Below are positions 29,419 through 46,578 of a stretch of DNA of 64,000 nt, piece by piece (the stretch's first letter is position 1; each line of letters opens with the position of its first letter). The notes beneath the pieces are model-generated. The model made no database searches, was not told where the DNA came from, and saw nothing but the letters and a program-made list of their open reading frames with translations. This DNA is from Isoptericola halotolerans (lineage in GTDB: Bacteria > Actinomycetota > Actinomycetes > Actinomycetales > Cellulomonadaceae), in the NCBI RefSeq assembly GCF_003003075.1, contig NZ_PVTX01000001.1, positions 620,001 to 684,000 on the forward strand. The letters run 5' to 3'. A program made the position numbers and the translations under genes.

Positions 29419-31193
29419 TGAGCGAACGGACCTACCGTCCCGAGGGCATCGCGGACGAGTTCACCCAGGGCACGCGCGGCGGCGAGAGCGAGGCCGGCGC
29501 GGCGCCGTCGGGCACGCCCAGGGCGCCCCGGATCGGCTGGCGCGGCATGCTGCGCTGGGTCTGGCGCCAGCTCACCAGCATGCGGGTCGCGCTGATGCTG
29601 CTCATGCTGCTCGCCGTCGCGGCCGTACCGGGGTCGATCCTGCCCCAGCGCAGCCAGGACCCCGCCGCGGTGGTGGAGTACCTCGGGGAGCACCCGACCA
29701 CGGGCGAGTGGCTCGACCGGTTCGGGTTCTTCGAGGTCTACTCCTCGCCCTGGTTCTCCGCGATCTACCTGCTGCTGTTCGTCTCGCTGGTGGGCTGCAT
29801 CGTGCCGCGCACCGTGGCGCACGCGCGGGCGGTCCGGCACCGGCCGCCGCGCACGCCGGCCCGGTTCGCGCGCTTCCCCGCCCGGGCGGCCGGGACCACG
29901 TCGGCCACGCCGCAGGAGGTGACCGACGCCGTCGCCGCGCACCTGCGGGGCCGACGGCGGTGGCTGCCCACGTTCCGCGTCGACACCGGCACCGAGGAGG
30001 CGCGCGAGGCGCGCGGCAAGCTCCCCGCCCGACCGGCCGCCGCCACCGTCGCGGCCGAGCGCGGCTACCTGCGCGAGACCGGCAACCTGCTGTTCCACCT
30101 GGCGCTGCTCGGGCTCGTCGTCGCGGTCGGCGTCGGGCAGATGCTGCACTACCGCGGCCAGGCGATCATCACCGAGGGCCGGGGGTTCGCCAACGCGGTC
30201 GTGGACTACGACACGTTCGAGAGCGGGGCCTGGTTCCAGCCGGAGTCGCTGGTGCCGTTCTCGATGACGCTGGACTCGTTCACCTCCGAGTTCGCGACCG
30301 ACACCGTCGCGTTCGCCCAGTCCCGCGACTTCACGGCGGCCGTGACGGTGACCGAGCCGGACGGCTCGACCTCCGCCGAGACCATCAAGGTCAACCACCC
30401 GCTCGTGATCGACGGGTCCAAGGTCTACCTGCAGGGCAACGGGTACGCGCCGGACATCACGGTGCGCGACGCCGAGGGGGAGGTCGCGTTCTCCGGTCGC
30501 GTGCCGTTCCTGCCGGAGGACCAGGTGTACACCTCACGGGGCGTGGTGAAGGTGCCCGACGTCTCCCCGGGGCTCGACCAGGTGGGCCTCATCGGGTACT
30601 TCCTGCCCACGGCCGTCATCGAGGCGGACGGGTCGGCCCGGTCGGTGTTCCCCCTGCCGGAGGACCCGCTGCTGATCCTCGAGGTGTACCGCGGGGACCT
30701 GGGCCTGGACGACGGCGTGCCCCAGAACGTGTACCGGCTCGACACGGCGAACCTCACGCCGTCGGTGGACGACGACGGCGAGCGCGTCCAGCTCCTGCTC
30801 GAGCCGGGCGACACCGTCGAGCTGCCCGACGGGCTGGGGACCGTGTCCCTCGGCGAGGACGTGCCGAGGTTCGTCGCGCTCGACCTGCGGCACGACCCGT
30901 CGCTCGGCTGGGTGCTGGCGTTCGCGCTCACGGCCCTCGTCGGCCTGACCGGTTCGCTGTTCCTGCCGCGCCGCCGCGTCTGGGTGCGATCATGGACGCA
31001 CGACGGCGTCACCCACGTCGAGGTCGCGGGCCTCGCCCGCGGTGACGACCTGGGGCTGCAGCCCGAGGTGGACCGGACGCTGGCGGCCGTCCCCGACCTG
31101 ACCGCCGGGCCCGCTGATCCTGGCTCCGGATCCGGCTCTGACTCCGGTGCCGGCTCCGGTGCCGCACCGACGCACGACCCCGAGAGAGGCTGA
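29418..31193 (+). CDS. resB: Cytochrome c biogenesis protein ResB (system II)
   Basis: 591 residues. It has three N-terminal helices with LTSMRVALMLLMLLAVAAVPGSILPQ, the family opening, then a large extracytoplasmic domain from about residue 235 to 500 and a final helix at about 505-525. Together with CcsB it carries haem to apocytochrome c outside the membrane. The C-terminal tail has Gly/Ser repeats (GSGSGSDSGAGSG). Start ATG 29418 overlaps the ccdA stop. Confidence 0.93.
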   Translation: MSERTYRPEGIADEFTQGTRGGESEAGAAPSGTPRAPRIGWRGMLRWVWRQLTSMRVALMLLMLLAVAAVPGSILPQRSQDPAAVVEYLGEHPTTGEWLDRFGFFEVYSSPWFSAIYLLLFVSLVGCIVPRTVAHARAVRHRPPRTPARFARFPARAAGTTSATPQEVTDAVAAHLRGRRRWLPTFRVDTGTEEAREARGKLPARPAAATVAAERGYLRETGNLLFHLALLGLVVAVGVGQMLHYRGQAIITEGRGFANAVVDYDTFESGAWFQPESLVPFSMTLDSFTSEFATDTVAFAQSRDFTAAVTVTEPDGSTSAETIKVNHPLVIDGSKVYLQGNGYAPDITVRDAEGEVAFSGRVPFLPEDQVYTSRGVVKVPDVSPGLDQVGLIGYFLPTAVIEADGSARSVFPLPEDPLLILEVYRGDLGLDDGVPQNVYRLDTANLTPSVDDDGERVQLLLEPGDTVELPDGLGTVSLGEDVPRFVALDLRHDPSLGWVLAFALTALVGLTGSLFLPRRRVWVRSWTHDGVTHVEVAGLARGDDLGLQPEVDRTLAAVPDLTAGPADPGSGSGSDSGAGSGAAPTHDPERG

Positions 31194-31195
31194 CC

Positions 31196-32179
31196 ATGGA
31201 GATCGCCGAGCTGAGCGACCTGCTCGTCTGGGCTGCCGCGACCGCGCTGACGGTCGCGATGATCGCGTTCGCCGTCGACCTGGGCCGGCGCACCGACGAG
31301 CGCGTCGGCGCCCGCGCCACGGCGGACGTCCCGGCCACCGTGGGTGCCGGGTCGGACGACCCGCGGGTGCCGGCGAGCGGGACCGACGGGCCCGGGCCGC
31401 ACGGCGGGCCGGAGCCGCGCCGTCGGGCCGCCGGCATCGCGATGTCCACGACGTGGCTCGGCACGGCGATGCTGCTGCTGGCGATCGTCATGCGCGGCGT
31501 GGCCGCCGGTCGCACGCCGTGGGCCAACATGTACGAGTTCACGATGGTCGGCTCGTTCATCGCCCTCGTGGTGTTCCTCCTGCTCAACCTGCGCCGCGAC
31601 GCGCGGTTCCTCGGCGCGTTCGTCACCGGGCTGGTCATCCTGTTCCTCGTGGTGGGGCTGAACTCCTTCCACGTCGCGGCGACCGGCGTGCAGCCCGCCC
31701 TGCAGAACTACTGGCTGGTGCTGCACGTCGGGGTGGCGATCGGCGCGACGGGCATCTTCACGGTCTCGTTCGTGATGTCGGCGCTGCAGCTGCTGCGCGA
31801 CTCCCGCGACGCCGGATCGCCGTTCCTGACGCGTCCGGGCTTCCGCTGGCTGGACCGCACCCCGGAGCCGACGACCCTGGAGTCGATGTCGTTCCGCCTC
31901 AACGCGATCGGCTTCGTGGCGTGGACCTTCACCGTCATCGGGGGAGCGATCTGGGCGGAGGACGCCTGGGGCCGCTACTGGGGCTGGGACCCCAAGGAGG
32001 TCTGGAGCTTCGTCATCTGGGTCGTGTACGCGGCCTACCTGCACGCCCGCACCACGCGCGGCTGGTCGGGGCGCCGGGCCGCCTGGTTCGTCGTCGTCGG
32101 CTACGCCTGCGTGCTGTTCAACTTCACCGGCGTGAACCTCATCTTCAACGGCAAGCACTCCTACTCGGGCATCAGCTGA
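31196..32179 (+). CDS. ccsB: Cytochrome c biogenesis protein CcsB/CcsA (haem handling)
   Basis: 327 residues, multi-helix. The haem-handling WWD-type motif is RYWGWDPKEVWSFVIWVVYAAYLHAR, and conserved histidines occur in NSFHVAAT and LVLHVGVAIG. It works with ResB to deliver haem. It starts 2 bp after resB and is the last of the set. Its TGA is directly followed, with no spacer, by array 3. Confidence 0.95.
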   Translation: MEIAELSDLLVWAAATALTVAMIAFAVDLGRRTDERVGARATADVPATVGAGSDDPRVPASGTDGPGPHGGPEPRRRAAGIAMSTTWLGTAMLLLAIVMRGVAAGRTPWANMYEFTMVGSFIALVVFLLLNLRRDARFLGAFVTGLVILFLVVGLNSFHVAATGVQPALQNYWLVLHVGVAIGATGIFTVSFVMSALQLLRDSRDAGSPFLTRPGFRWLDRTPEPTTLESMSFRLNAIGFVAWTFTVIGGAIWAEDAWGRYWGWDPKEVWSFVIWVVYAAYLHARTTRGWSGRRAAWFVVVGYACVLFNFTGVNLIFNGKHSYSGIS

Positions 32180-32180
32180 C

Positions 32181-32400
32181 GCCGAGGTAGTGGCGCCCCC
32201 GCCGAGGTAGTAGCGCTCGTCGCGAGGTAGCGCGCCACCCGCCGAGGTAGTAGCGCGCTCGCCGAGGTAGGGCGACGTTCGGCGAGGTAGTGGGCCAGGC
32301 GCCGAGGTAGTACCGAACGCGCCGCGGTAGTGGCGCTCGCCCCGAGGTAGCAGCGATCGCCCCGAGGTAGTGCCCGACGGCGTGGGGTAGCGCCGGGCGG
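32181..32400 (+). repeat. Array 3 of 20-bp GAGGTAG tandem repeats (11 units)
   Basis: The longest array: units start every 20 bp from 32181 to 32381. GGTAG is present in all eleven; the GAGGTAG core is changed in units 8 (GCGGTAG) and 11 (GGGGTAG). Flanking 11 bp vary freely. It begins 2 bp after the ccsB stop and reads in the ccsB sense direction. It covers half of the 425-bp gene-free region to 32604. Confidence 0.95.
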
Positions 32401-32410
32401 GAACGTCGAA

Positions 32411-32504
32411 GCCGGGTGTCGGGTCCCGTGCACGGTCGTCAGTCCCGAAGTGGAGGGCGCCCTGCGCCCGTGAACGCGACCGTGCACGGGACCCGACACC
32501 CGGC
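32411..32504. terminator. Perfect 28-bp inverted repeat between facing arrays
   Basis: Arms 32411-32438 and 32477-32504 are perfectly complementary over 28 bp with a 38-nt loop, containing CGGGTCCCGTGCACGG. The repeat sits between array 3 (plus) and array 4 (minus), at the centre of a convergent gene pair. It is probably a bidirectional terminator, though the length and perfection of the arms are more than termination needs. Confidence 0.7.
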
Positions 32505-32523
32505 GGAACCCGACCCACCCCGC

Positions 32524-32612
32524 ACTACCTCGACCCGCGAGGTACTACCTCGGCACGAGCGCTACTACCTCGCGCAACCCCGCACTACCTCGGCGAGGCG
32601 CGGACTACTTCG
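32524..32612 (-). repeat. Array 4 of 20-bp GAGGTAG repeats, minus orientation (5 units)
   Basis: ACTACCTCG occurs at 32524, 32544, 32564, 32584 and, as ACTACTTCG, at 32604, an exact 20-bp period. Read on the minus strand the core is CGAGGTAGT. The last unit supplies the TAG stop (32605-32607) of the minus-strand gene, so the array is again sense with the gene it follows. Confidence 0.94.
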
Positions 32613-32943
32613 GGGGGTCGTCGTCGCGCTCGCGGCGCTCCTGACGGCGCTTCTCCTGCTCGAGCCGCCACAGGAAGTCGGGGTCGTCGTCGGGCGCGAC
32701 CGGACCGGACGGGCGGCGCGGGCCGCGACCGGGACGTGCTCCCCGGCCACCGGAACCTCCACGCCGGCGCGACATCTTGGTGGCGATCCAGACGATTGGC
32801 CCGAAGATGGGCAGCAGGACGATGATGACGACCCAGAGCCACGCGGGCAGGCCGCCGCGGTCTTCCTCCTCCGACCCGGCGAGGTCGGCAAGGCTGTAGA
32901 CCAACAGGCCGACGACGACGAGGCCCACCAGTACGCGGAACAT
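32605..32943 (-). CDS. PLDc_N-type two-helix membrane protein
   Basis: 112 residues. Two helices (VLVGLVVVGLLVYSLADL and LPAWLWVVIIVLLPIFGPIVWI) with the GLPAWLWVVIIVLLPIFGPI pattern of the phospholipase D N-terminal (PLDc_N) domain, which occurs alone in many actinobacteria. A charged Arg/Gly/Pro cytoplasmic tail follows. Its role is unknown. The final codons ccg aag TAG are part of array 4. Confidence 0.85.
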   Translation of the reverse strand: MFRVLVGLVVVGLLVYSLADLAGSEEEDRGGLPAWLWVVIIVLLPIFGPIVWIATKMSRRRGGSGGRGARPGRGPRRPSGPVAPDDDPDFLWRLEQEKRRQERRERDDDPPK

Positions 32944-33011
32944 TCCTCCAGCCTAGTTCGCCCTGCGGCCGCAACCGAATCGCGCGGTCCGGGGCCGACG
33001 TCGCGCGGCCG

Positions 33012-33017
33012 TATCCT
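33012..33017 (+). promoter_or_regulatory. Leaderless -10 box TATCCT
   Basis: TATCCT ends 6 nt before GTG 33024, with no Shine-Dalgarno sequence. Confidence 0.55.
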
Positions 33018-33023
33018 GGATCC

Positions 33024-33347
33024 GTGCCTCTCGTGACCTACACCGTGCTGCGCCTCCTGGTCTTCGTCGCCGCCCTCGGCGCCGGGTATCTGGTGGGGCT
33101 GCGCAGCTGGCTGCTGCTGCTCGTGGGGATCGTGGTGGCGTTCGCGGTGTCGTACATCCTGCTGGCGAAGCAGAAGGACGCGGCCGCACGGTGGATGGCG
33201 GAGCGTGCGGAGCGCCGCCGCTCCGGCGAGGAGGGCCTGGGGAAGGTCATCGACGAGGACGCCGCCGCCGAGGACTCCGCGTTCGACACGGACGGGCGCT
33301 CCGGCACCGAGCACCCGGACGTCGACCGGTCCGGCAACGAGCGGTAG
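33024..33347 (+). CDS. DUF4229-type small membrane protein
   Basis: 107 residues. Two adjacent helices (TVLRLLVFVAALGAGYLVGL and WLLLLVGIVVAFAVSYILL), then KQKDAAARWMAERAERRR and an acidic tail. This is the layout of DUF4229 proteins, which often neighbour menaquinone genes in actinobacteria; function unknown. GTG start with leaderless promoter; divergent from the PLDc_N gene and convergent with menA. Confidence 0.82.
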   Translation: MPLVTYTVLRLLVFVAALGAGYLVGLRSWLLLLVGIVVAFAVSYILLAKQKDAAARWMAERAERRRSGEEGLGKVIDEDAAAEDSAFDTDGRSGTEHPDVDRSGNER

Positions 33348-33371
33348 CGCCCGGAGCCCCGCCGGGGACGC

Positions 33372-34241
33372 TCAGAGCGCCAGGCCGAGCCCCAGCAGCA
33401 CCCCGTAGGCGAGCTCGAACATCCCGGTGCCGGCGAGCACCGGCACCAGTGCCCGGCCCCGCGCTCCGGCGATCACCGGGATCACCAGCAGCACGGCCGG
33501 CAGGAGCAGCACCGTCACGAGGAAGGCCCACGGGTTCCAGGCGGCGCACGCCAGGGCGAGCAGCACGGGCACCACGATCCACAGCGCGTAGACCCGCCGC
33601 GCGCGATGGTCGCCGAGCCGCACCGCCAGGGTGCGTTTGCCCGCGACGACGTCGGTCGGGATGTCCCGGATGTTGTTGACCATGAGCAGCGCGCACGCGA
33701 TCAGTCCCACCCCGACGGCGCCGAGCAGCGCGGGCCACGTGATCCGGTCCGCCTGGGTGTAGGTGGTCCCGAGGGTGGCGACGAGCCCGAAGAAGACGAA
33801 CACCCCGACCTCGCCGAGCCCTGCGTACCCGTACGGCCGCTTGCCGCCGGTGTAGTACCAGCCGGCGAGCATCGAGACGGCGCCGACGGCGATCAGCCAC
33901 CAGTGCCCGCTCACGGCGCACAGTGCCAGCCCGAGGACCCCCGCGACCCCGAACGCCCCGAACGCCGCCGCCTTGACCTGCCCCGGCCGGGCGGTCCCGG
34001 AGGCGGTGAGGCGTAGCGGGCCCACCCGGTCCAGGTCGGTGCCCCGCACGCCGTCGGAGTAGTCGTTGGCGTAGTTGACGCCGATCTGCAGCGCGAGCGC
34101 GACGCCGAGGGCGAGCACGGCGGGCAGCCAGGCGAACGCGTCGACCTGCGCGGCGGCGCCGGTGCCGATCGCCACCGGCGCGGCGGCGGCGGGCAGGGTG
34201 CGGGGCCGCGCTCCGGCGACCCACTCGGCCGTGGTGGCCAT
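33372..34241 (-). CDS. menA: 1,4-dihydroxy-2-naphthoate polyprenyltransferase
   Basis: 289 residues, UbiA superfamily, about nine membrane helices. The prenyl-diphosphate motif is NYANDYSDGVRGTD; the second Asp motif region is LLMVNNIRDIPTDVVAGKRTL. It joins the isoprenoid tail to DHNA in the membrane, giving demethylmenaquinone. ATG 34241 has GAGAGGAG upstream and lies 11 bp after menE, so the two form an operon. Confidence 0.95.
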   Translation of the reverse strand: MATTAEWVAGARPRTLPAAAAPVAIGTGAAAQVDAFAWLPAVLALGVALALQIGVNYANDYSDGVRGTDLDRVGPLRLTASGTARPGQVKAAAFGAFGVAGVLGLALCAVSGHWWLIAVGAVSMLAGWYYTGGKRPYGYAGLGEVGVFVFFGLVATLGTTYTQADRITWPALLGAVGVGLIACALLMVNNIRDIPTDVVAGKRTLAVRLGDHRARRVYALWIVVPVLLALACAAWNPWAFLVTVLLLPAVLLVIPVIAGARGRALVPVLAGTGMFELAYGVLLGLGLAL

Positions 34242-34252
34242 GCGTGCTCCTC

Positions 34253-35458
34253 TCAGTCGCGCGCCGCGTGGGCGCGCACCAGGTCGACGACGGCGGCACG
34301 GTCGACCTTCCCGGGCCCGCGCAGCGGCAGGGCCTCCACCCGCAGGATGCGGCGGGGTGCGGCGGCCGGCCCGAGTCTAGCGGCGACCGCGGACCGCACT
34401 CGCGCCAGCTGTGCGCGATCTCCCCACTCCTCAGCCGCTGTGGGTGCACGACGCGCCGTCGAGCCGCTCGGTCCCACGGCGCGTCGTGCACCCACAGCGG
34501 CTGTGAGGACGGCCACCAGCTCCTGGCCCCACTCGTCGTGCGGCACGCCGACGACGCACACCTCGGCGGCCAGCAGCTCGCCGAGCACCGCCTCGACCGC
34601 GGCCGGCGCGACGTTCACCCCGCCCGTGACCACGACGTCGTCCGCGCGGCCGACCACCCGGAGCACGCCGCCGTCGACCGCGCCGAGGTCGCTGGTGCGG
34701 AACCAGCGCCCGTCCGGGCCGTCGACGAACGCCGCTGCCGTGGCGACGTCGTCCCCGAGGTAGCCGGTCGCGAGCACCGGACCGGCGATCTCCACGACGC
34801 CGGCCTCCTCGTCGACGGGAGCGAGGCGGACCCGCACGCCCGGCAGCGGGACGCCGTCGTAGACGCAGCCGCCGGCCGTCTCGGACATGCCGTACGTGCG
34901 CACCACGGGGACGCCGGCGTCGCGGGCGCGCTCCAGCAGCCGGGGCGGGGTCGCGGCACCGCCGAGCAGGACGGCGCCGCACCGGGCGAGCGCGTCGAGC
35001 GCGGCCGGTGCACCGCCGTCGGCCGCCTCGACGACGCGGTGCAGCTGGGTGGGCACGAGCGAGACGTGCACCGGGTCGTCACCGGCCAGCGGTCCGGCGA
35101 GCAGGTCGGCCAGGCCGCCCGGGGTGAACGGGCCGCCGCCCGCGGCGGTCAGCGGCGTGCCGGCCAGCAGCGACCGGGCGATCACCTGCATGCCCGCCAC
35201 GTGCGTGGCCGGCAGCGTGAGGACCCAGCGGCCGGGGGCGCCGAGCCGGTCCGCGGTCGCGGCGGCCGACGCCCGCAGGGCCGCGGCGCTCAGCGCGACC
35301 TCGCGCGGCGTCCCCGTCGAACCGGAGGTCCGCACGACCAGCGCGGTGCCCGACGGCGGCACGTGCGCCGTGAGGCGGGGCAGCGGGGCGACGGGTGGGC
35401 CGCCGTCCAGCGCACGGCGCATGCCGTCCACGAGCGCGGCGAGGTCGGGGGTGCTCAC
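34253..35458 (-). CDS. menE: o-Succinylbenzoate-CoA ligase, with palindrome-coded insert
   Basis: 401 residues. Adenylating enzyme that activates OSB with ATP and CoA. The P-loop is VVRTSGSTGTPREVAL, the A5/A7 region YGMSETAGGCVYDG and WFRTSDLGAVDGG, and the catalytic lysine region LRGPGKVDRAAVV. Short for the family (E. coli about 450), as in actinobacteria. Residues of about 319-342 are coded by a perfect 28-bp inverted repeat inserted in frame. Start GTG 35458 is leaderless (TATCGT 6 nt upstream). Confidence 0.92.
   Translation of the reverse strand: MSTPDLAALVDGMRRALDGGPPVAPLPRLTAHVPPSGTALVVRTSGSTGTPREVALSAAALRASAAATADRLGAPGRWVLTLPATHVAGMQVIARSLLAGTPLTAAGGGPFTPGGLADLLAGPLAGDDPVHVSLVPTQLHRVVEAADGGAPAALDALARCGAVLLGGAATPPRLLERARDAGVPVVRTYGMSETAGGCVYDGVPLPGVRVRLAPVDEEAGVVEIAGPVLATGYLGDDVATAAAFVDGPDGRWFRTSDLGAVDGGVLRVVGRADDVVVTGGVNVAPAAVEAVLGELLAAEVCVVGVPHDEWGQELVAVLTAAVGARRAVGPSGSTARRAPTAAEEWGDRAQLARVRSAVAARLGPAAAPRRILRVEALPLRGPGKVDRAAVVDLVRAHAARD
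34432..34503. repeat. 28-bp perfect palindromic element inside menE
   Basis: Arms 34432-34459 and 34476-34503 are perfectly complementary, with a 16-nt loop; total 72 bp, 24 codons. In the menE frame it reads AAVGARRAV then TARRAPTAA, in a region between the adenylation core and C-terminal lobe where the family has no such segment. Frame is preserved on both sides. Confidence 0.85.
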
Positions 35459-35464
35459 GGCCTC

Positions 35465-35470
35465 ACGATA
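35465..35470 (-). promoter_or_regulatory. Leaderless -10 box TATCGT for menE-menA
   Basis: Minus-strand TATCGT lies 6 nt before GTG 35458. Confidence 0.5.
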
Positions 35471-35510
35471 GGCCGCGTCCGGCGTCGGCCCGCACGGCCG
35501 GTGCGCCGCC

Positions 35511-35556
35511 CCGCTCGCACCCGGCCCCGCTCGCACCCGGCCCTGCTCGCACCCCC
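35511..35556. repeat. Three copies of a 16-bp repeat in the menE/DUF3048 spacer
   Basis: GCTCGCACCCGGCCC-type units are repeated about three times with a 16-bp spacing in the divergent intergenic region (35459-35634). The rest of the region shows a -10 for menE and the ribosome site GACGAGGAGG for the lipoprotein gene. Confidence 0.6.
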
Positions 35557-35634
35557 CGCGCTGGCCGACCCCGCCGGACGGGATACGGGCCTCCCGTGCA
35601 CCCGTGGTGCATCCTGTGGGGACGAGGAGGTGCC

Positions 35635-36717
35635 ATGACGCTCAGGAGAGCAGCGTCCGCGGTGCTGGCGGCGTCGTTGGCGCTCGCCGCCGCCGGGTGC
35701 GCACCAGGGACGGACCCGCAGAGCGCCCCGCGGGTCACGGTGGCCCCGGTCGTGTCGCGGGCGAAGATCGCCCCGCCCGCCGTCGTCGTCCCCGAGCCGG
35801 AGCCGGAGCCCGAACCGCCGCGCTGGCCGTTGACGGGCGTGCGGACGGGCACCACGAAGGTCCCCGAGCGGCCCGCGGTCGCCGTGAAGATCGAGAACTC
35901 CGCCGCGTCGCGGCCGCACACCGGGCTGCACCGCGCGGACGTCGTGTGGGAGCAGGTCGTCGAGGGTGGCATCAGCCGGTTCGTCGCGGTGTACCACTCG
36001 ACCTACCCGCGCCAGGTCGGTCCGGTGCGCTCCGTGCGCCCGATGGACCCCGCGACGGTGGCGCCCCTGCGGGGCATCCTCGCCGCGTCCGGCGGGCAGC
36101 CGCCGTTCCTGCGGGCGGTCGAGAGGTCCGGCACGCAGCTGCTGACCAACGACGACGGCGACCGCGGGTTCTGGCGCAGCAGCTCGCGTGCCGCGCCGCA
36201 CAACGTCTACGGGAACGTCAAGACGTTCGCGCGGGAGGCCGACCGCAAGCGCGCCGAACCGCCGAAGGCCGAGTTCGAGCACGCGACGAAGCGCCGGGAC
36301 GCCACGGCCCGGGCCGAGGGGAAGAAGGGTCGGACGGCGGACGTGCGGCTCTCCCCGGCGCAGCGCACCACGTGGACGTGGGCCGGGGGGGCCTACCGGC
36401 GCAGCGACGACGGCAGGGCGTCGATGTCCTCGGGCAAGCGCGTCACGGCACGCAACGTGCTGCTGCTGAAGGTCGACGTCACCAGCACCGGCTACCGGGA
36501 CCCGAGCGGCGCCTCCGTCCCGAAGGCGGAGCTCGTCGACCGGGGCAGGGGGATGCTCCTGGGCGGGGGCCGGGCCGTGCCGGTCACGTGGTCCAAGAAG
36601 GGGACCAAGGCGCCGCTGCGGCTATCGCTGCGCGGTGGCGGTGACGTGCTGCTCGAACCGGGGAACACGTGGGTCGAGCTGGTGCCGCGGGGCTCCGGCT
36701 CGTGGGACGTGTCGTGA
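35635..36717 (+). CDS. DUF3048 (YerB-like) lipoprotein, copy 1
   Basis: 360 residues from ATG 35635 behind GACGAGGAGG. Lipoprotein signal with lipobox LAAAGC (Cys at about 22), then a Pro/Glu linker. The DUF3048 domain begins at WPLTGV and contains VAVKIENSAASRPHTGL, ADVVWEQVVEGGISRFVAVYHS and VGPVRSVRPMDPATVAPL. It is anchored outside the cell membrane. The fold is known but its function is not established. Tandem with a diverged paralogue 10 bp downstream. Confidence 0.9.
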   Translation: MTLRRAASAVLAASLALAAAGCAPGTDPQSAPRVTVAPVVSRAKIAPPAVVVPEPEPEPEPPRWPLTGVRTGTTKVPERPAVAVKIENSAASRPHTGLHRADVVWEQVVEGGISRFVAVYHSTYPRQVGPVRSVRPMDPATVAPLRGILAASGGQPPFLRAVERSGTQLLTNDDGDRGFWRSSSRAAPHNVYGNVKTFAREADRKRAEPPKAEFEHATKRRDATARAEGKKGRTADVRLSPAQRTTWTWAGGAYRRSDDGRASMSSGKRVTARNVLLLKVDVTSTGYRDPSGASVPKAELVDRGRGMLLGGGRAVPVTWSKKGTKAPLRLSLRGGGDVLLEPGNTWVELVPRGSGSWDVS

Positions 36718-36727
36718 GGGAGCGTCG

Positions 36728-37783
36728 ATGACCGTACGGTTCGCGCGGCGGGCGGCGCCGGGTGCGCTCGCCCTGATCGCGCTGCTCGTGACCGCCTGCG
36801 GTGGTGATCCGGAGCCGGCACCGACGACGACGGTCCCGGCCGCCGTCGAGGCGCAGAAGGCCGCGCCGCCCACGCCTGACGCGCCGATCGTGTGGCCCCT
36901 GACCGGCGTCGAGACGGACGAGGTGGCCGCCCGCCCGGCGCTCGCGGTCAAGATCGAGAACGACCCGGTCGTGCGCCCGCAGACCGGGCTCGACGCCGCC
37001 GACATGGTCTGGGAACAGGTCATCGAGGGCGGCGTCACCCGGTTCGTGGCCGTCTACCACTCGCGGGTGCCGGACGCGGTCGAGCCGGTCCGCTCGGTGC
37101 GCCCGATGGACCCGGCGATCGTGGCGCCGCTGGACGGGATCCTCGCCTACTCCGGCGCGCAGCAGCCGTTCATCGACGACGTCCGCGCCGCGGGCACGCA
37201 GTCGGTGATCATGGACGCCGGCGATCCCGGGTTCCGCCGCGACCCCGGCGCCGCTGCCCCGCACAACGTGATCGGCGACCCGCAGGCGTTCCTGGCGCAG
37301 GCCGACGGCGAGCGCACCGCACCCCCGCCGGCCCAGTTCGCGTTCGCCGCCGAGGGCAGGAGCACGGCCGTGGCCGACGGCGCGGAGCGGTCCTCGCTGG
37401 ACGTCCACCTGTCGCCGCGCCAGACCGCCGGATGGGACTGGGACGCCGACGCCGGTGCCTGGCTGCGCCGCGAGGGTGCCGACCCGTCGATGGCGGCGTC
37501 GGGGGAGCGGCACGCCGCGGCGAACGTGGTGGTGCTGGAGGTGGAGGTGGTGGACACGAGCTTCAAGGACCCGGCGGGCGCGCCGGTGCCGGAGACGCAG
37601 CTCGTCGGCTCGGGAACGGCCTTCGTGGCGAGCGGCGGCAGGGTCCTCGAGGCCGAGTGGTCCAAGGAGTCCGTGCGCGACCCGGTCGAGCTCGTGGCGG
37701 GCGGCGAGCCCGTCGAGCTGGAGCCGGGCGCGACCTGGGTCGAGCTGCTGCCGACGTCCGGCGGGCTGGACGTCAACCCCTGA
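36728..37783 (+). CDS. DUF3048 (YerB-like) lipoprotein, copy 2
   Basis: 351 residues. Lipobox LVTAC (Cys at about 25). Same domain blocks as copy 1: WPLTGV, LAVKIENDPVVRPQTGLDAADMVWEQVIEGGVTRFVAVYHS, VRSVRPMDPAIVAPL, AAPHNVIGD. Similarity is high in the core and low in the linker and C-terminal third, indicating an old tandem duplication. The middle of copy 2 lacks the Lys/Arg-rich insert of copy 1 (TKRRDATARAEGKKGRT). It is convergent with menB, 6 bp apart. Confidence 0.9.
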   Translation: MTVRFARRAAPGALALIALLVTACGGDPEPAPTTTVPAAVEAQKAAPPTPDAPIVWPLTGVETDEVAARPALAVKIENDPVVRPQTGLDAADMVWEQVIEGGVTRFVAVYHSRVPDAVEPVRSVRPMDPAIVAPLDGILAYSGAQQPFIDDVRAAGTQSVIMDAGDPGFRRDPGAAAPHNVIGDPQAFLAQADGERTAPPPAQFAFAAEGRSTAVADGAERSSLDVHLSPRQTAGWDWDADAGAWLRREGADPSMAASGERHAAANVVVLEVEVVDTSFKDPAGAPVPETQLVGSGTAFVASGGRVLEAEWSKESVRDPVELVAGGEPVELEPGATWVELLPTSGGLDVNP

Positions 37784-37789
37784 CGGCGC

Positions 37790-38776
37790 TCAGAAGGCGT
37801 ACGGGAAGCCCGACCAGTCGGGGTCGCGCTTGGCGAGGAACGCGTCCCGACCCTCGACGGCCTCGTCGGTCATGTAGGCGAGCCGCGTCGCCTCCCCGGC
37901 GAACACCTGCTGGCCCATGAGCCCGTCGTCGGCCAGGTTGAACGCGAACTTGAGCATGCGCACCGCCTGCGGGGACTTCCCGGCGATGGTCCGCGCGTAC
38001 TCCACGGCGAGGCCTTCCAGGTCCTCGTGGTCCGCGACCTCGTTGACGGCGCCCCAGCGCTCGGCGTCGTCCGCCGAGTACTCCCGCGCGAGGAAGAAGA
38101 TCTCCCGCGCCCGCTTCTGCCCGACCTGGCGCGCCAGGTAGGCCGAGCCGTACCCGCCGTCGAACGATCCGACGTCGGCGTCGGTCTGCTTGAACTTCCC
38201 GTGCTGGCGGCAGGCGATCGAGAGGTCGGCCACGACGTGCAGCGAGTGCCCGCCCCCGGCGGCCCAGCCGTCGACGACGGCGATCACCACCTTGGGCATG
38301 GTGCGGACGAGGCGCTGGACCTCCAGGATGTGCAGGCGTCCGGCGCGGGCCGGGTCCACGTGGTCGGCCGTGTCGGCGCCGTCGACGGGCCGCCCCGCGC
38401 CGTCGGCCGTCGTGTACTGGTAGCCGGAGCGGCCACGGATGCGCTGGTCCCCGCCGGAGCAGAACGCCCAGCCGCCGTCCTTGGGGGACGGCCCGTTGCC
38501 GGTGAGCAGCACGGTCCCGACGTCGGAGGTCATGCGGGCGTGGTCCAGCACCCGGTACAGCTCGTCGACGGTGTGCGGACGGAACGCGTTGCGCACCTCG
38601 GGCCGGTCGAACGCGACCCGGACGACCGGCAGGTCGCGCACGACGGCGCCCGCTGCGTCGCGTTCCACGCCCCGGTGGTACGTGAGGTCCGTCAGGTCGT
38701 CGAACCCGGCGACGGTGCGCCACCGGGAGGCGTCGAACGTCGCGGAGACGGGTGTGGGAAGGTCGCTGGTGCTCAC
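37790..38776 (-). CDS. menB: 1,4-dihydroxy-2-naphthoyl-CoA synthase
   Basis: 328 residues, crotonase fold. It cyclises OSB-CoA to DHNA-CoA. The oxyanion and active-site segments are VDGWAAGGGHSLHVVADLSIA and KQTDADVGSFDGGYGSAYLARQVG, nearly invariant in MenB, and the C-terminus PDWSGFPYAF is typical. GTG 38776 is placed by a leaderless TACGCT box 7 nt upstream. It is monocistronic here and sits between men genes on both sides. Confidence 0.97.
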   Translation of the reverse strand: MSTSDLPTPVSATFDASRWRTVAGFDDLTDLTYHRGVERDAAGAVVRDLPVVRVAFDRPEVRNAFRPHTVDELYRVLDHARMTSDVGTVLLTGNGPSPKDGGWAFCSGGDQRIRGRSGYQYTTADGAGRPVDGADTADHVDPARAGRLHILEVQRLVRTMPKVVIAVVDGWAAGGGHSLHVVADLSIACRQHGKFKQTDADVGSFDGGYGSAYLARQVGQKRAREIFFLAREYSADDAERWGAVNEVADHEDLEGLAVEYARTIAGKSPQAVRMLKFAFNLADDGLMGQQVFAGEATRLAYMTDEAVEGRDAFLAKRDPDWSGFPYAF

Positions 38777-38783
38777 GCGGGCC

Positions 38784-38789
38784 AGCGTA
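38784..38789 (-). promoter_or_regulatory. Leaderless -10 box TACGCT for menB
   Basis: Minus-strand TACGCT lies 7 nt before GTG 38776. Confidence 0.5.
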
Positions 38790-38826
38790 GTGCGCCCCGT
38801 CGACCGCCGGCCCGGGGTGACTCATT

Positions 38827-38862
38827 CTGCACAGTGCAGTCCAGCCGGGCTGCACAGTGCAG
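38827..38862. promoter_or_regulatory. Two identical 13-bp palindromes (operator pair)
   Basis: CTGCACAGTGCAG occurs at 38827-38839 and 38850-38862. Each is a perfect palindrome about a central A, 23 bp apart start to start. They lie upstream of menB and immediately before a DUF4143 gene remnant, so they may be the operator of the lost gene or act on menB. Confidence 0.55.
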
Positions 38863-38867
38863 CACGG

Positions 38868-39042
38868 ATGGCCTGCGACGCCGATCGGCTCCTCGCAGAC
38901 CTGAACACCTTCGGCCTTCTCTTCGAGTCGTTGGTGGTCCGAGACCTGCGCGCCTACGCCGATGCCCGGGACGCACGGGTCTTCCACTACCGCGACTCCG
39001 ACAACCTCGAGATCGACGCGGTGGCGCGTCTGACGCTCACAG
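38868..39042 (+). pseudogene. Remnant of a DUF4143-domain AAA ATPase
   Basis: The plus frame from ATG 38868 reads about 58 residues (LLADLNTFGLLFESLVVRDL, ARVFHYRDSDNLEIDAVARL). These match the C-terminal DUF4143 part of the AAA-plus-DUF4143 family, normally about 400 residues. The ATPase half is missing, and the fragment runs directly into the 3' end of the convergent SurA_N gene. It is a deletion remnant, probably of a horizontally moving gene. Confidence 0.75.
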
Positions 39043-39798
39043 GTGGATGGTCACGTCGCCCTCGTCGCGCAGGGTGGCCACGATGCCGTCGACGGCCGCG
39101 GCCTGCTGCTCGCCCACGGCCTGCTGCGCGAGCTGGTCGCGGACGTCCTCGAACGGCGGGATCTCGGCCTGCGAGGCACCCTCGCCACCCTGGGACCCCA
39201 TCTGCTCGACGAGGGTGTCGTACTGCTCGCGCAGCTCGTCCTCGCTCGGCTCCTCGATGTCCGCCTCGGCCTCGATGTAGGCGTTGACCTGGAACTGGGC
39301 GGCCGCGTCCTCGCGCACCTCGTCCTCCGAGATGCCCTGCTCGCCGAGGGCGGCGACCACCTCGTCCGCGGACTGCAGCCCGTTCTGCGCCGCGATGCCC
39401 TCGAGCGTGGTCTCGATGTCCTCGTCGGTAGCCTCGATGCCGGCCTCCGTGGCCGCCTGCGTCAGCAGCCGGTTGCCCACCAGCTGCTCGGCGACCTGCT
39501 GCTTGAGGGCGTCCTGGTCGACCTCCTGGCCGGTGGTCTGCTGCGACATCGCCGCCTGCTGCAGCTGGCCCTCGTAGGCGGTGACGAACTCCGCACGCTC
39601 GACGTCCTCGCCGTTGACCTCGGCGACGACGTCGGGCACGTCCTCGAGGTCCGGCTCGGGGGCGCCGGCGCCCGCCTCGGGGGAGGCCTCGGCGCTCGGG
39701 CTGCTCGGGGGGTTCTGGCCGTCGGTCTCGGACGTGCAGCCGGCGAGCGCGACGACCGCGGCCACTGAGAGCGCGACGAGCGGGCGCTTGATCGACAT
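39037..39798 (-). CDS. SurA_N-domain lipoprotein chaperone
   Basis: 253 residues from ATG 39798 with GAGGAG upstream. Lipobox VALAGC (Cys at about 20), then an acidic linker and a helical SurA_N domain: VVAEVNGEDVERAEFVTAYE, LKQQVAEQLVGNRLLTQAA and AQFQVNAYIEAEADI. The parvulin-type isomerase domain of full SurA/PrsA is not recognisable, so it may be chaperone only. TACGGT at 39831-39836 (minus) is a fair -10. Its 3' end abuts the ATPase remnant. Confidence 0.85.
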   Translation of the reverse strand: MSIKRPLVALSVAAVVALAGCTSETDGQNPPSSPSAEASPEAGAGAPEPDLEDVPDVVAEVNGEDVERAEFVTAYEGQLQQAAMSQQTTGQEVDQDALKQQVAEQLVGNRLLTQAATEAGIEATDEDIETTLEGIAAQNGLQSADEVVAALGEQGISEDEVREDAAAQFQVNAYIEAEADIEEPSEDELREQYDTLVEQMGSQGGEGASQAEIPPFEDVRDQLAQQAVGEQQAAAVDGIVATLRDEGDVTIHL

Positions 39799-39997
39799 GG
39801 TCACTCCTCGTGATGGGTGCTGGTTCACCGACCGTATCCACACGAACCTGGGAACGAGTCGACCGGGCGATCAGGTGACGTTCAGGAACGGGTGCAGTGC
39901 GCCTGCCGCCCGGGCGTGCTCGGGCTCTTGCAAGGCGTGCCGAGCATCCGCGCGCGTCGTCCTGAAAATCTGCACACGCGGGAGGCACCATGGACGC

Positions 39998-40183
39998 ATG
40001 GACACGATGCCACCTCGAGACACCGAGGTCGCCGACCCGGACGAGGTCGTCGACGAGCTCATCGCCTACGACGCCGCCGCCCTGCGCCGTGCGACCGCCA
40101 CGACCCAGGCCGTCCCGGTGGTGCCGGCACGATCGCCGGGCCGCTGGGTGCACGGCAGGCTGCCCGACGAGTTCACCGACTGA
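39998..40183 (+). CDS. Small hypothetical protein
   Basis: 61 residues from ATG 39998, with GGGAGG 10 nt upstream. The sequence (MDTMPPRDTEVADPDEVVDE, ending GRWVHGRLPDEFTD) is acidic, with a helix around DEVVDELIAYDAAALRRATA. An overlapping ATG at 39990 opens a different, less protein-like frame. The family is not recognised. It lies 50 bp before menC. Confidence 0.5.
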   Translation: MDTMPPRDTEVADPDEVVDELIAYDAAALRRATATTQAVPVVPARSPGRWVHGRLPDEFTD

Positions 40184-40221
40184 CGCGGTGCCCGCGGCCG
40201 CGCGTCACGGCCCGCTCGTCC

Positions 40222-40227
40222 TACCCT
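40222..40227 (+). promoter_or_regulatory. Leaderless -10 box TACCCT for menC-menD
   Basis: TACCCT ends 6 nt before GTG 40234. Confidence 0.55.
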
Positions 40228-40233
40228 GAGGGC

Positions 40234-41265
40234 GTGCCCGCCATCCTCTCCGCGACGAGGCAGGACCGGTTCGTCTGGTCGTCCCCGCTGCGCACCCGGT
40301 TCCGCCACCTCGACGTCCGCGACGGCGTGCTCCTGCGCGGCGAGGCCGGCTGGGGCGAGCTGAGCCCGTTCTGGGACTACGACGACGGCGAGTCGGCCGC
40401 GTGGCTGCGCGCGGCCCGGGAGGCCGCGGACCACCCGTTCCCCGCGCCGGTCCGCGACCGGGTCCCCGTCAACGTGACCGTGCCGGCCGTCGGTCCGGAG
40501 CGCGCCCGGGAGATCGTCCTGGCCTCCGGTGGGTGCCGCACGGCCAAGGTCAAGGTCGCGCAGCGCACCGTCGGTGCGGGCGGCACCCCAGGACCGGTCG
40601 AGCCGGTCGACGCCGAGATCGCACGCGTGGAGGCGGTCCGCGCCGCGTTCGACGACGCCGGGATGCCCGACGCCGCGATCCGCGTGGACGCCAACGGGGC
40701 CTGGACGCTCGACGAGGCGCTGCGGCGCGTCCCGCTGCTGGACGCCGCAGCCCGCGGCCTGGAGTACGTCGAGCAGCCGTGCGCCACGGTGCCCGAGCTG
40801 GCTGCGGTCCGCCGCGGCACCGACGTGCCCGTCGCCGCCGACGAGTCGATCCGTCGCGCCGCCGACCCGCTGCGGGTGGTGCGCGAGGACGCCGCGGACG
40901 TCGTCGTGCTCAAGGTGCAGCCGCTCGGCGGGGTGCGGGCCTGCCTGGAGCTCGCCGAGCAGGTGGGGCTGCCGGTCGTCGTGTCCTCCGCGCTCGAGTC
41001 GTCCGTGGGGCTGGCGGCCGGTGTGGCGCTCGCGGCGGCGCTGCCCGAGCTGCCGCACGCCTGCGGGCTGGCCACCTCTCAGCTTCTCGTGCACGACGTC
41101 ACCGACCAGCCGCTGCTGCCCGTCGACGGCGCGCTGCCGGTGCGGCGGGTGGCCCCGGACGCGGACGCCCTGGCCGCGGCCACGGCGTCCCCGGAGCTGC
41201 GGGACCGGTGGTTCGCGCGGCACGACCGGTTGGCCGCCCTGCTCGCGACGGGGCGTGCCGCGTGA
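40234..41265 (+). CDS. menC: o-Succinylbenzoate synthase
   Basis: 343 residues, enolase superfamily. It dehydrates SHCHC to o-succinylbenzoate. The first catalytic lysine is in TAKVKVAQ, metal ligands are in IRVDANGAWT, YVEQPC and VAADESIRR, and the second lysine is in VVLKVQPLGGVRACLELAE. GTG 40234 is set by the leaderless box. The stop overlaps the menD start (GTGA). Confidence 0.95.
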   Translation: MPAILSATRQDRFVWSSPLRTRFRHLDVRDGVLLRGEAGWGELSPFWDYDDGESAAWLRAAREAADHPFPAPVRDRVPVNVTVPAVGPERAREIVLASGGCRTAKVKVAQRTVGAGGTPGPVEPVDAEIARVEAVRAAFDDAGMPDAAIRVDANGAWTLDEALRRVPLLDAAARGLEYVEQPCATVPELAAVRRGTDVPVAADESIRRAADPLRVVREDAADVVVLKVQPLGGVRACLELAEQVGLPVVVSSALESSVGLAAGVALAAALPELPHACGLATSQLLVHDVTDQPLLPVDGALPVRRVAPDADALAAATASPELRDRWFARHDRLAALLATGRAA

Positions 41266-43094
41266 CCGGGGTGCCGCCGTCGGGCAGCCCCGCGGTGGAG
41301 GCCGCCCGCGCCCTGGTGGCGGACCTGGTCGCCCAGGGCGTGCGCGACGTGGTGCTGGCCCCCGGGTCCCGCTCGGCCCCGCTCGCCTACGCGCTCGCCG
41401 AGGCCGACGCGCGCGGCGACGTCGTCCTGCACGTCCGGATCGACGAGCGCTCGGCCGGCTTCCTGGCGCTCGGGCTGTCGCGCGGGTCGGCCCTCGGTCC
41501 AAGGTCCGACGGCGGCACCCCGGCGGCGCGACCGGTCGCCGTGGTCACGACGTCGGGCACCGCCGTGGCGAACCTGCACCCCGCGGTGCTCGAGGCGCAC
41601 CACTCCGGCGTGCCCCTCGTGCTCCTGACCGCCGACCGGCCGCACGAGCTGCGCGGCACCGGCGCCTCCCAGACCACCGACCAGGTCGGGATCTTCGGGA
41701 CGGCGGTGCGCGCCGCCGTCGACGTCCCGGCGCCCGACGGCCGGGCCGGGGAGGTGCGTGACCTGCTCGCCGTCGTGCGGCGCACGGTGGCCGCGGCGCG
41801 CGGCGCACGAGACCTGCATCCCGGACCGGTCCACCTCGACCTGGCCTACCGGGACCCGCTGCACCCCGCGGACGACGGGACCGGTCCGGTTGCTGGCTCC
41901 GCCGGGTCCGAGGCCACGCCGGTCGCCGAGTCCCGCCGTACGGTCGAGGTCGTGCCGCCCGTCGCCGGTCCGGGCGCCGACCCGGCGCTGCCCGGCGACC
42001 GGGCGCGCACGCTCGTCGTGGCGGGCGACGGTGCCGGACCCGCCGCGCGGCGGCTGAGCGAGGCGCAGGGCTGGCCGTTGCTCGCCGAACCCTCCTCGGG
42101 CAGCGCCGACGGACCGCTCGGCGTCGTCGCCTACCGGTCGGTGCTCGGAGCCGCCGGTCTCGCGGACGACGTCGAGCACGTCGTGGTCCTCGGGCACCCC
42201 ACGCTCTCGCGGCCCGTGCAGCGCCTGCTGGCCCGCCCCGACGTCGCGGTCACCGTCGTCGCACCGGGCGGCGGCCCGTGGCCCGACGCCGCCCGCAACG
42301 CGACCCGCGTGGTCGGCGCCCTGCACGAGCGATGGTTCGCCCCCACCCGCGACGGCGGGGCCTTCGCCGCGCGGTGGCGGGCGGCGAGCGACGCCGCGGC
42401 CGCCGTCGTGGCGGCCGCCACGACGGACGAGGCCGTGCAGGGCGGTCTGCGCACCGCGCCGCACGCGGCGCTCGCCGTCGCGCGCGCCGTCGTCGCCGTC
42501 AGCGGTGCCGACGACGTCCTCGTGGTGGGTGCGTCGAACCCGGTGCGCGACCTCGACCTCGTGCTCGGCCTCGATTCGGGACCCGCGCCGACCGTGCTCG
42601 CCAACCGCGGCCTGGCCGGGATCGACGGCACGGTGTCCACCGCGACGGGCGTCGCGGTCGAGGCCGGCCGTGCGGGCCGGCGTGCGCGGGCGCTGGTCGG
42701 CGACCTGACGTTCCTGCACGACGTGGGCGGCCTGCTGCGGGGGCCGGGCGAGCCCGCCGTGGACCTCGACGTGATCGTGGTGAACGACGACGGCGGCTCG
42801 ATCTTCGCGACGCTCGAGCACGGGGCGCTCGCGGCGACCGGCCCGGCCGCGGGGGCGACCTTCGAGCGGGTGTTCGGCACCCCGCACGGGGCGCACCTCG
42901 CGCAGCTCTGCGCGGGCTACGGCGTGGACCATCAGCTGGTCGACGACGTCGCGTCGCTGCGGCACGTCCTGGCCGGGCCGTCGCACGGGGTCCGGGTGAT
43001 CGAGGTGCCCGTGGCCCGCGCCGCCCGACTCGAGGAGTCCCGCGACCTCACCGCCCGCATCCACGCCGAGGTAGGGCGAACCCTCGCGAGGTAG
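41262..43094 (+). CDS. menD: SEPHCHC synthase (MenD), C-terminus coded by repeat units
   Basis: 610 residues. A thiamine-diphosphate enzyme that joins 2-oxoglutarate and isochorismate. It has VVLAPGSRSAPLAYAL near the N-terminus, then VVTTSGTAVANLHPAVLEA and LLTADRPHELRGTGASQTTDQ. The C-terminal cofactor region includes ANRGLAGIDGTVSTATG and VNDDGGSIFATLEHG. The last ten codons (AEVGRTLAR and stop) are made of two 20-bp repeat units, so TAG 43092-43094 belongs to array 5. Coupled to menC. Confidence 0.96.
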   Translation: MTGVPPSGSPAVEAARALVADLVAQGVRDVVLAPGSRSAPLAYALAEADARGDVVLHVRIDERSAGFLALGLSRGSALGPRSDGGTPAARPVAVVTTSGTAVANLHPAVLEAHHSGVPLVLLTADRPHELRGTGASQTTDQVGIFGTAVRAAVDVPAPDGRAGEVRDLLAVVRRTVAAARGARDLHPGPVHLDLAYRDPLHPADDGTGPVAGSAGSEATPVAESRRTVEVVPPVAGPGADPALPGDRARTLVVAGDGAGPAARRLSEAQGWPLLAEPSSGSADGPLGVVAYRSVLGAAGLADDVEHVVVLGHPTLSRPVQRLLARPDVAVTVVAPGGGPWPDAARNATRVVGALHERWFAPTRDGGAFAARWRAASDAAAAVVAAATTDEAVQGGLRTAPHAALAVARAVVAVSGADDVLVVGASNPVRDLDLVLGLDSGPAPTVLANRGLAGIDGTVSTATGVAVEAGRAGRRARALVGDLTFLHDVGGLLRGPGEPAVDLDVIVVNDDGGSIFATLEHGALAATGPAAGATFERVFGTPHGAHLAQLCAGYGVDHQLVDDVASLRHVLAGPSHGVRVIEVPVARAARLEESRDLTARIHAEVGRTLAR

Positions 43095-43200
43095 TGCGTC
43101 GCCTCGCGAGGTAGTGCGTCGCCTCGCGAGGTAGTGGCTCGCCCCGCGAGGTAGTGCGTGGCGCCGCGAGGTAGTGCCGAACCCGCCGAGGTAGTAGACG
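43066..43200 (+). repeat. Array 5 of 20-bp GAGGTAG tandem repeats (7 units)
   Basis: CGAGGTAG begins at 43067, 43087, 43107, 43127, 43147, 43167 and 43187, exact 20-bp period. Unit 1 is read as codons of menD (GAG GTA), unit 2 in another frame as GCG AGG TAG stop. Units 2-4 are almost identical. It is sense with menD and lies between menD and a co-directional protease gene. Confidence 0.95.
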
Positions 43201-43257
43201 CCTGACCTGCGGCGATGCGGATTACCAGGGAGTTCACAGGTTCACCCAAGGGGTGCT

Positions 43258-43279
43258 CCAGGAACACGGTGTTCCCTGG
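43258..43279. promoter_or_regulatory. Palindrome upstream of htrA-like gene
   Basis: GGAACAC-G-GTGTTCC (43261-43275) is a perfect 15-bp palindrome, extended by CCA/CTGG on the sides with one extra C. It is 30 bp before the start of the protease gene and may be an operator. Half-site spacing does not fit LexA. Confidence 0.45.
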
Positions 43280-43305
43280 TACCAGGACATCGAGGGAGAG
43301 GGCAC

Positions 43306-44937: not shown

Positions 44938-44948
44938 CCCGACAGACT

Positions 44949-44999
44949 CCCGCGGCGGTGCGGCGTGCCCCCCCTTCGTCCACGCGACGCCGCCGCGGG
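44949..44999. terminator. Hairpin terminator after htrA-like gene
   Basis: 10-bp perfect outer stem CCCGCGGCGG/CCGCCGCGGG with inner GCGTG/CACGC pairing, starting 11 bp after the stop. Confidence 0.65.
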
Positions 45000-45032
45000 C
45001 ACCGTCGGACGCAGTCGGTCCGTGCGGTCACC

Positions 45033-45071
45033 TGCGGCCGGTCCGGCACCTCGTGTGCCGGGCCGGCCGCA
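45033..45071. terminator. Hairpin terminator between htrA-like gene and menF
   Basis: 17-bp inverted repeat with one mismatch (45033-45049 with 45055-45071), 5-nt loop, in the convergent spacer 44938-45114. Confidence 0.65.
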
Positions 45072-45114
45072 TCGTCGTGCCGGCTCGCTGTGCCGTATCG
45101 CCGTGCCGGGGCCG

Positions 45115-46488
45115 TCAGGCGGCGCCGAGCGCCCAGGACATCGGCACCAGCTTCGCCTCGGACTCGGCCAGCTCCGCCTGCGGGTCGGACGCCGCCACGA
45201 TCCCGCAGCCGGCGAAGAGCCGCACGTGGCGCGGGTCGTCGCCGAGCTCCGCGGACCGCAGCGCGATGCCCCACTCGCCGTCGCCGTCGGCGCCCACCCA
45301 GCCGACCGGACCGGCGTAGCGGGCGCGGTCCATGCCCTCGATCTCCCGGATGAGGTCGCGAGCGGCCACGGTCGGGGTCCCGCACACCGCCGCGGACGGG
45401 TGCAGGGCCGCCGCGAGCGTCAGCGAGCTCGCCCGGGCGCCCGGGTCGAGCACGGCCGTGACGTCGGACGCGAGGTGCATGACGTTCGGCAGGTGGAGCA
45501 CGAACGGCGCGTCCGGCACGTTCATCGAGGAGCAGAACGGCTCGAGGGCGTGCGCCACCGAGCTGACGGCGAACTCGTGCTCCTCCAGGTCCTTCGACGA
45601 GCGGGCGAGCTGGGCGGCGTGCAGCAGGGCGTCGTCGTCGCTCATCCCCGGCTCGCGACGGATGGTGCCGGCCAGCACGCGGGACGTGACGAGCCCCTTC
45701 TCGCTGCGGACGAGCAGCTCGGGCGTGGCCCCCACCATGCCGCCCACGGAGAAGGTCCAGCACGAGGAGTAGCCGTCGGCGAGACGGCGCAGCACCCAGC
45801 GCGGGTCCACGGGCCGTTCCGCGGTGGCGAGCACCTCGCGCGCCAGGACGACCTTCTCGAGCTCGCCGGCCTGGATGCGCTCGACCCCCTCGGCGACGAC
45901 GGCGGGCCAGTCGCGGGCGGCCACGGCGCCGTCGGCGAGGGTCACCCGCCCGGGGTCGGTGACCGGTTCGCGCACGGTCCGGGCCAGCGCCGCGGGACCG
46001 GGGGCGTCCAGCTGGTCCGCGGGAGCGATCGTCGTCATCCACGACACGTCGCCCCGCCGTCCGACGACGACCCGCGGCACGACGAGCGAGCCCTCCGGGC
46101 GGGCGCCGTCGAAGTGGTCGCCCGTGCCGCCGTCGTCGAACGCGAAGGTGCCGAACGCCACGGGACCCGTGCCGGGCAGGCCGACCTCGTCCCGGACGAC
46201 GGCGCGGGCGAGCGTCGCACGCCAGGCGGCCTCGGCGTCGGCGAACCGGCCGGGTCCGAACGTGTCGAGCCTCAGCGCCTCGCCCCAGCCGACCAGGCCG
46301 TCGCCGCGGCGCACCCACGTCAGGGGCCGGGTGTCGGGCAGCAGGTCGACCAGTGCCGTGAGGTCGGCGGGGAGAGGGTCGATGCGCGTGGTGCGCACGA
46401 CCAGCGGCTGGGGCTCGATGGCGTGCGAGCGGCTGCCGGAGGACGCGCCCGACGGCGGTACCGGCGCCGGGTGGGGCGTGGCGGACAT
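45115..46488 (-). CDS. menF: Isochorismate synthase
   Basis: 457 residues from ATG 46488. It converts chorismate to isochorismate, the entry into menaquinone synthesis. The chorismate-binding fold is C-terminal, with [68 protein letters not shown] and [26 protein letters not shown] lies 7 nt before the ATG on the minus strand (leaderless). A longer frame open to 47670 has no coding support. Divergent from menG. Confidence 0.94.
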
Positions 46489-46495
46489 CGGGCCC

Positions 46496-46501
46496 AGGAT
46501 A
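46496..46501 (-). promoter_or_regulatory. Leaderless -10 box TATCCT for menF
   Basis: Minus-strand TATCCT lies 7 nt before ATG 46488. Confidence 0.55.
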
Positions 46502-46578
46502 CGCCGACGCGCGCCCGTGGCACCCGGGTGCCGGGGTCCCGGGCGACCGCGCGGGGCAGACGTGGCACGATGGCCGAC

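Follow-up and report, generated by a model that had tools for sequence, protein, structure and literature searches.

A REP-like palindromic repeat of Isoptericola lies in frame in menE and may be kept because a protein reads its paired arms

The palindrome inside the menE gene of Isoptericola is best explained as one copy of a dispersed REP-like repeat of this genus, kept because a putative protein reads its paired arms; we give this reading a probability of roughly 0.5. Whatever reads the arm sequence is probably a protein. That the palindrome is an inserted and translated palindromic element is supported by the comparison of MenE sequences given below. All positions refer to the window, which is the whole 64,000-nt stretch of the genome that was analyzed. 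The features of the menE locus are as follows:

34253..35464, minus strand: menE, o-succinylbenzoate-CoA ligase; the start codon is uncertain, the ORF being open to 35536
33372..34241, minus strand: menA, the next gene, on the same strand as menE
34432..34503, no strand: full perfect 28-bp inverted repeat of the menE copy, encoding about MenE residues 321-345 (core 323-342)
34436..34499, no strand: 64-bp repeat unit CGYTGTGGGTGCACGACRCGCCG-N18-CGGCGYGTCGTGCACCCACARCG, menE copy; boundaries set by aligning 20 copies and 47 copies
34439..34458, plus strand: left 20-nt core arm, 0 mismatches to TGTGGGTGCACGACRCGCCG
34459..34476, no strand: 18-nt loop, varying freely among copies (copy comparison)
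34477..34496, minus strand: right 20-nt core arm, inverted, 0 mismatches

The initial annotation described a perfect 28-bp inverted repeat with a 16-nt loop in frame in menE, and both the sequence and the reading frame bear this out. The 28-nt arms (34432-34459 and 34476-34503) are perfectly complementary and 16 nt apart, and they keep the reading frame of a minus-strand ORF that stays open from 35536 down to 34253; the repeat finder extends the arms to 35 nt at 91%. The family-wide unit is the 64 bp at 34436-34499, the outermost 4 bp on each side of the 28-bp arms of menE not being common to the family. On the menE strand, positions 34427-34508 fold at -74.9 kcal/mol, compared with -36.75 +/- 3.38 in 200 shuffles (z -11.3; none of the 200 as good). 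Within the 64-kb window, the 20-nt core arm matches the menE palindrome only, plus one site elsewhere with three mismatches (0.11 expected by chance). A chance hairpin is ruled out by the fold and by these match statistics. A scan of 30000-50000 against Rfam gave five matches, all under the gathering scores, the best being a microRNA model on the menE palindrome.

The product of menE was assigned as o-succinylbenzoate-CoA ligase by PRK07824 (E 2.2e-87, but at 293.5 bits below the model cut-off of 345) and by the Pfam domains AMP-binding and AMP-binding_C, both above their cut-offs. MenE of relatives was aligned, as the initial annotation had proposed, using 27 sequences drawn from 58 genomes with matches (shorter or lower-scoring ones, including the partial loci L046, L047, and L049, were omitted). 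The element was found at the same place in the own genome (G000) and in the sister species G011, whereas it is absent from 24 of the 27 sequences; in a third species, G008, a stub, GCTGTGGGTG, stands at the position of the arm start. The segment that carries the insert varies in length across the alignment. An earlier suggestion of recent insertion does not hold for menE, because G011 has a copy at the same place, with a diverged loop, and G008 keeps the stub. In the AlphaFold2 model of MenE, proposed earlier as a check of surface exposure, the insert lies between a strand and a helix and is modelled with very low confidence (below 50 for residues 327-342, the insert core being 323-342), as expected if it were a floppy loop. 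An inversion of the loop between the G000 and G011 orthologues was considered and is too weak to claim (11 of 18 bases matching inverted vs. 9 of 18 direct). Elsewhere in menE, a hexamer of the form TAGACT/TAGGCT/TACGCT with unusual codons lies at 34374-34379 on the minus strand, in a VAARLG stretch. This stretch was found in 17 of the 27 relatives searched, 11 of which have TAG and 5 TACGCT. The hexamer may be a -10 promoter box for menA, internal to menE.

In total, the same palindrome was found at 20 places in the genome of this soil bacterium. Nineteen of them have a core of exactly 58 nt, made up of TGTGGGTGCACGACRCGCCG, 18 nt, and an inverted copy of that arm; the remaining core measures 59 nt, its loop being 19 nt long. 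With the outer CGY added, the core becomes the 64-bp unit of two inverted 23-bp arms around the 18-nt loop (19 in the one copy). The loops differ in every copy, and two copies carry one further arm change. By loop similarity, no recent duplicates were recognized among these copies: the best pair was reached by 74 of 300 shuffles, although the mean loop similarity lay above all 300.

A covariance model of the repeat matches 13 of the 18 genomes of the genus at E <= 0.1, strongly in G000, G011, G008, G013, and G016. G011 has 18 typical copies and one with the outer arm only; G008 has six copies; G013 has six, of which one differs in its interior; G016 has one typical and one outer-only copy. In a sample of the order, 25 of 248 genomes match at E <= 0.01, and nine of the 25, outside the genus, at E < 1e-5, these E-values being rough. 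The 16 copies read in three of these nine (G187, G166, and G252) are variants of an inner motif, CACGACACGCC, mostly with shorter loops in G187. The exact inner-motif pattern matches 2 of 394 sampled genomes of the class, a count that omits G011, G187, and G252 although their sequences hold the motif. Two copies at unrelated sites in G013 (L206 and L207, 5001-5068), each immediately flanked by the stop codons of two convergent genes, have the same arm variant and, by eye, 14 of 18 loop bases in common. This pair supports the view that the repeat spread as a discrete unit. A plasmid, phage, or viral source was rejected: only weak matches were found (the best at 34-40 bits, none with E below 0.4; one arm-like 24-nt match in an Arthrobacter plasmid has E 5), and viral contigs do not contain the exact arm. 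No paper was found with any arm string searched, and among literature naming both Isoptericola and "palindromic" no title concerns such a repeat.

The initial annotation also proposed a search for further palindromes inside genes, and one more in-frame copy was found in G000, in a sensor histidine kinase gene (HisKA_3 and HATPase_c). Matches at E <= 1e-40 were found in 14 genomes of the genus, 12 of which cover the site (rows L267 and L268 do not); the insert is present in G000 and G011 and absent from the other 10. Orthology is only assumed here, because the kinases are 53-66% identical to that of G000. The codon offset of the element is 2 in menE and 1 in the kinase, and therefore the encoded peptide cannot be a conserved feature.

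The remaining copies are mostly outside genes. In G000, 18 of the 20 copies lie outside coding sequence, compared with about 8% of the window slots that are noncoding (p 5e-18). Two of the 18, counted as intergenic, overlap a gene end by about 29 nt, one of them supplying the final residues of a predicted membrane protein. Among 49 intergenic copies in five genomes, for which orthologues were counted more than once and gene calls were made in this analysis, 6 lie between divergent genes, vs. 42% of the intergenic slots of the window (p 5e-6); for G000 alone the figure is 4 of 18 and is not significant (p 0.065). A preference for convergent gaps, with 24 of the 49 copies, is likewise not significant (p 0.06).

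The arms are far more constant than their surroundings. The orthologous place is occupied in G011 at 12 of the 20 G000 sites (one site with two candidate G011 copies was paired with the better-flanked one). Across these 12 sites, the arms differ at 8 of 480 positions, the loops at 59 of 207 (gapped), and the near flanks at 157 of 820; without gaps, the loops of the 11 equal-length pairs differ at 78 of 198. Between the same two genomes, third codon positions show 63 differences in 320 for the part of menE that precedes the element and 92 in 431 for the kinase, counting the element. By these counts, the arms change at about one tenth of the rate of the sequence around them, which fits the active maintenance that had been offered as the alternative to recent insertion. 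The loops and flanks at the 12 sites have drifted, and therefore those insertions are not recent.

Pairing alone seems not to account for this constancy. The 74 arms of G000 and G011 (G011_L185 and G011_L182 were left out of the tally) contain 22 deviations, 15 of them at one R position and 4 at one C. At the R-position pair the two arms vary independently (Fisher p = 1), leaving 13 of 37 copies mispaired there; by eye, no consistent orientation gives G.U wobble on the transcribed strand. Off the R position, only 7 deviations were found in the 74 arms. That one pair can be mispaired although the other positions seldom change suggests that the arm sequence is read; judged from these alignments, it is the arm sequence, beyond pairing alone, that seems to be held. 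Between species, 94.4% of cells are paired in an alignment of 47 copies, and two-sided changes occur in 18 of 25 pairs (16 of 23 inside the unit). All five covariation measures lie above all 500 shuffles, which keep sequence kinship, and above slid controls. G011_L185, G011_L182, G011_L180:5001, G016_L213, G008_L191, and the 59-nt G000 copy (L053) were omitted from this alignment. Selection acting solely on the hairpin would account for such two-sided changes as well. Constraint is weaker in G008, since five of its six copies carry arm mutations.

A possible, though doubtful, alternative is a plain bidirectional hairpin terminator, in which a strong stem alone is selected and the arms stay constant through common ancestry and because single changes break the stem. 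The very stable folds and the pairing kept across species agree with it, as does position: the core lies within about 31 nt of the stop codon in 12 of the 14 intergenic G000 copies that adjoin a gene 3' end, so that 12 of the 20 copies place a stable stem shortly after a stop codon. By eye, no T-run follows the hairpins, and the flanks are C/G-rich; terminators of high-GC actinobacteria often lack a T-run. Stem strength alone does not explain why one pair is mispaired in 13 of 37 copies when other deviations are so few (7 in 74 arms), and two copies lie inside genes. The four copies between divergent genes, where a terminator makes little sense, count against a terminator and also against the arm-reading model.

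Empty sites give a divided answer on termination. Six G000 sites were probed in G011 and G008, and both flanks were found in one stretch at only two, the others being rearranged or one-sided and not used. One of the two is empty in both species; the G011 gap has a hairpin of its own (z -3.5), as a terminator would predict, whereas the G008 gap folds little better than shuffles (z -0.8). At the other, which has an apparent remnant in G011, an ordinary hairpin follows the stop codon in both G000 and G011, although only G000 has the element next to it; the element is therefore not needed as a terminator there.

Unlikely, in our judgment, is a selfish MITE whose arms are terminal inverted repeats (core TG...CA), moved by a transposase now absent and without host function. 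The repeat does behave as a discrete unit, with orthologous sites that either carry or lack it, and the ends of its core are indeed TG and CA. Two copies (G011 L185 5001-5078 and G016 L213 5001-5078) share with the family only the outer 14 nt or so of the arm, with interiors that differ from the family and bear some likeness to each other. Against a MITE, old copies should decay in their arms as in their loops, and the arms do not. Moreover, no true lone arms, and hence no full element with such ends, were found in G000, G011, or G008, where arms occur in pairs only: lone matches (4, 5, and 3, respectively) all have 3 mismatches, and the reversed pattern gives 17, 16, and 18. No target duplication was recognized at the empty sites, which are few and much diverged. 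MITEs, including the terminator-like SPRITE, resemble the Isoptericola repeat as non-autonomous inverted-repeat units near genes with terminator-like features, as described in PMC10969869; the repeat differs in that neither a parent transposon nor a target duplication was recognized for it.

Spread of a REP sequence by a RAYT (REP-associated tyrosine transposase), suggested by a short dispersed palindrome mostly 3' of genes, is very improbable because no Y1 transposase (Y1_Tnp, PF01797) was found in any of the 18 genus genomes, and RAYT/IS200 machinery was rejected on that result (the control was detected in 5 of 14 known genomes).

The preferred reading, a REP-like repeat kept for its arms, thus concerns an element that resembles both REP sequences and Rickettsia palindromic elements yet lacks defining features of each. 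Like REP/BIME, it is a short palindrome in many copies, mostly at gene 3' ends, with a conserved stem sequence; unlike them, it has 23-bp arms, an 18-nt variable loop, two in-frame gene copies, and no Y1 (RAYT) in the genus. REP sequences spread by RAYT have a conserved GTAG/GGAG tetranucleotide beside the palindrome, and by eye no conserved bases of this type were found outside the 64-bp unit. The Rickettsia elements are described in PMC10969869 as about 150 bp long, with nearly half of the copies in genes and a conserved encoded peptide. The likeness to them noted in the initial annotation stands as far as in-frame insertion into unrelated protein genes, in variable loops, is concerned. By that description (PMC10969869), the Isoptericola repeat is set apart from the Rickettsia elements by its size (64 bp) and by the lack of a conserved peptide, and also in that only 2 of its 20 copies lie in genes, in different frames. 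The Bor, Ype, and Efa families of Bordetella, Yersinia, and Enterococcus, as described in PMC1590033, are likewise stem-loop repeats near gene 3' ends, in other hosts; the likeness is one of description.

Other repeats were found in the window. Arms at 32411 and 47354 had been listed beside the menE palindrome; they exist and their sequences do differ from it, but they belong to two other repeat families, and the arms at 47351-47418 are 32 nt rather than 28-29. The palindrome at 32411-32504 has 28-nt arms with 38 nt between them and represents a distinct repeat, whose conserved core, CCCGAAGTGGAGGGCGCCC...GTGAACGC, sits within a long covarying outer stem (two-sided changes in 26 of 37 predicted pairs, from 18 hand-picked sequences). 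It is matched in all 18 genus genomes, with no Rfam family above the gathering score and no plasmid or viral match. No paper was found with its core string, and one of its strings occurs in two unrelated papers; the repeat appears to be a structured element of RNA or DNA not yet described. The third family, at 47351-47418, has arms matching at 97%, with arm changes that mostly keep pairing. The own genome carries this family at 12 places and G011 at 6, with single weak matches in G008 and G003. Short-period arrays of GAGGTAGTNGCG-like units lie between genes at 32180-32400, 32520-32620, and 43065-43200, those around the 32411 element running in opposite orientation on its two sides, and an array of GTCGAACGTCGTCGCGC-like units at 47295-47350 adjoins the 47351 palindrome.

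For the menE repeat, the following course of events may be proposed. The unit would once have spread as a whole and would have reached menE before G000, G011, and G008 separated, the insertion being tolerated, presumably, because the frame was kept and the site lay in a flexible loop. It would then have been kept because a putative sequence-specific protein reads the arms as a pair, mainly near the ends of genes, whether in duplex form or in a hairpin that is extruded or transcribed. Candidate roles of such binding are, first of all, termination or insulation, and further protection of mRNA 3' ends, DNA topology, and chromosome organization. A more speculative and rather doubtful version holds that the repeats are paired sites of a putative chromosome-organizing, insulating, or terminating protein of Actinomycetales, the specificity of which drifts from species to species together with all its sites, and that this demand on the DNA overrides codon choice in menE and the kinase.

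On the preferred reading, the repeat would be a case outside Rickettsia of a palindromic repeat in frame in two unrelated proteins, in two frames, and kept as nucleic acid during the divergence of species. The menE and kinase copies separate constraint at the DNA level from constraint at the protein level, and the genome offers about 20 natural sites, some with empty orthologues, for finding the putative reader of the arms.
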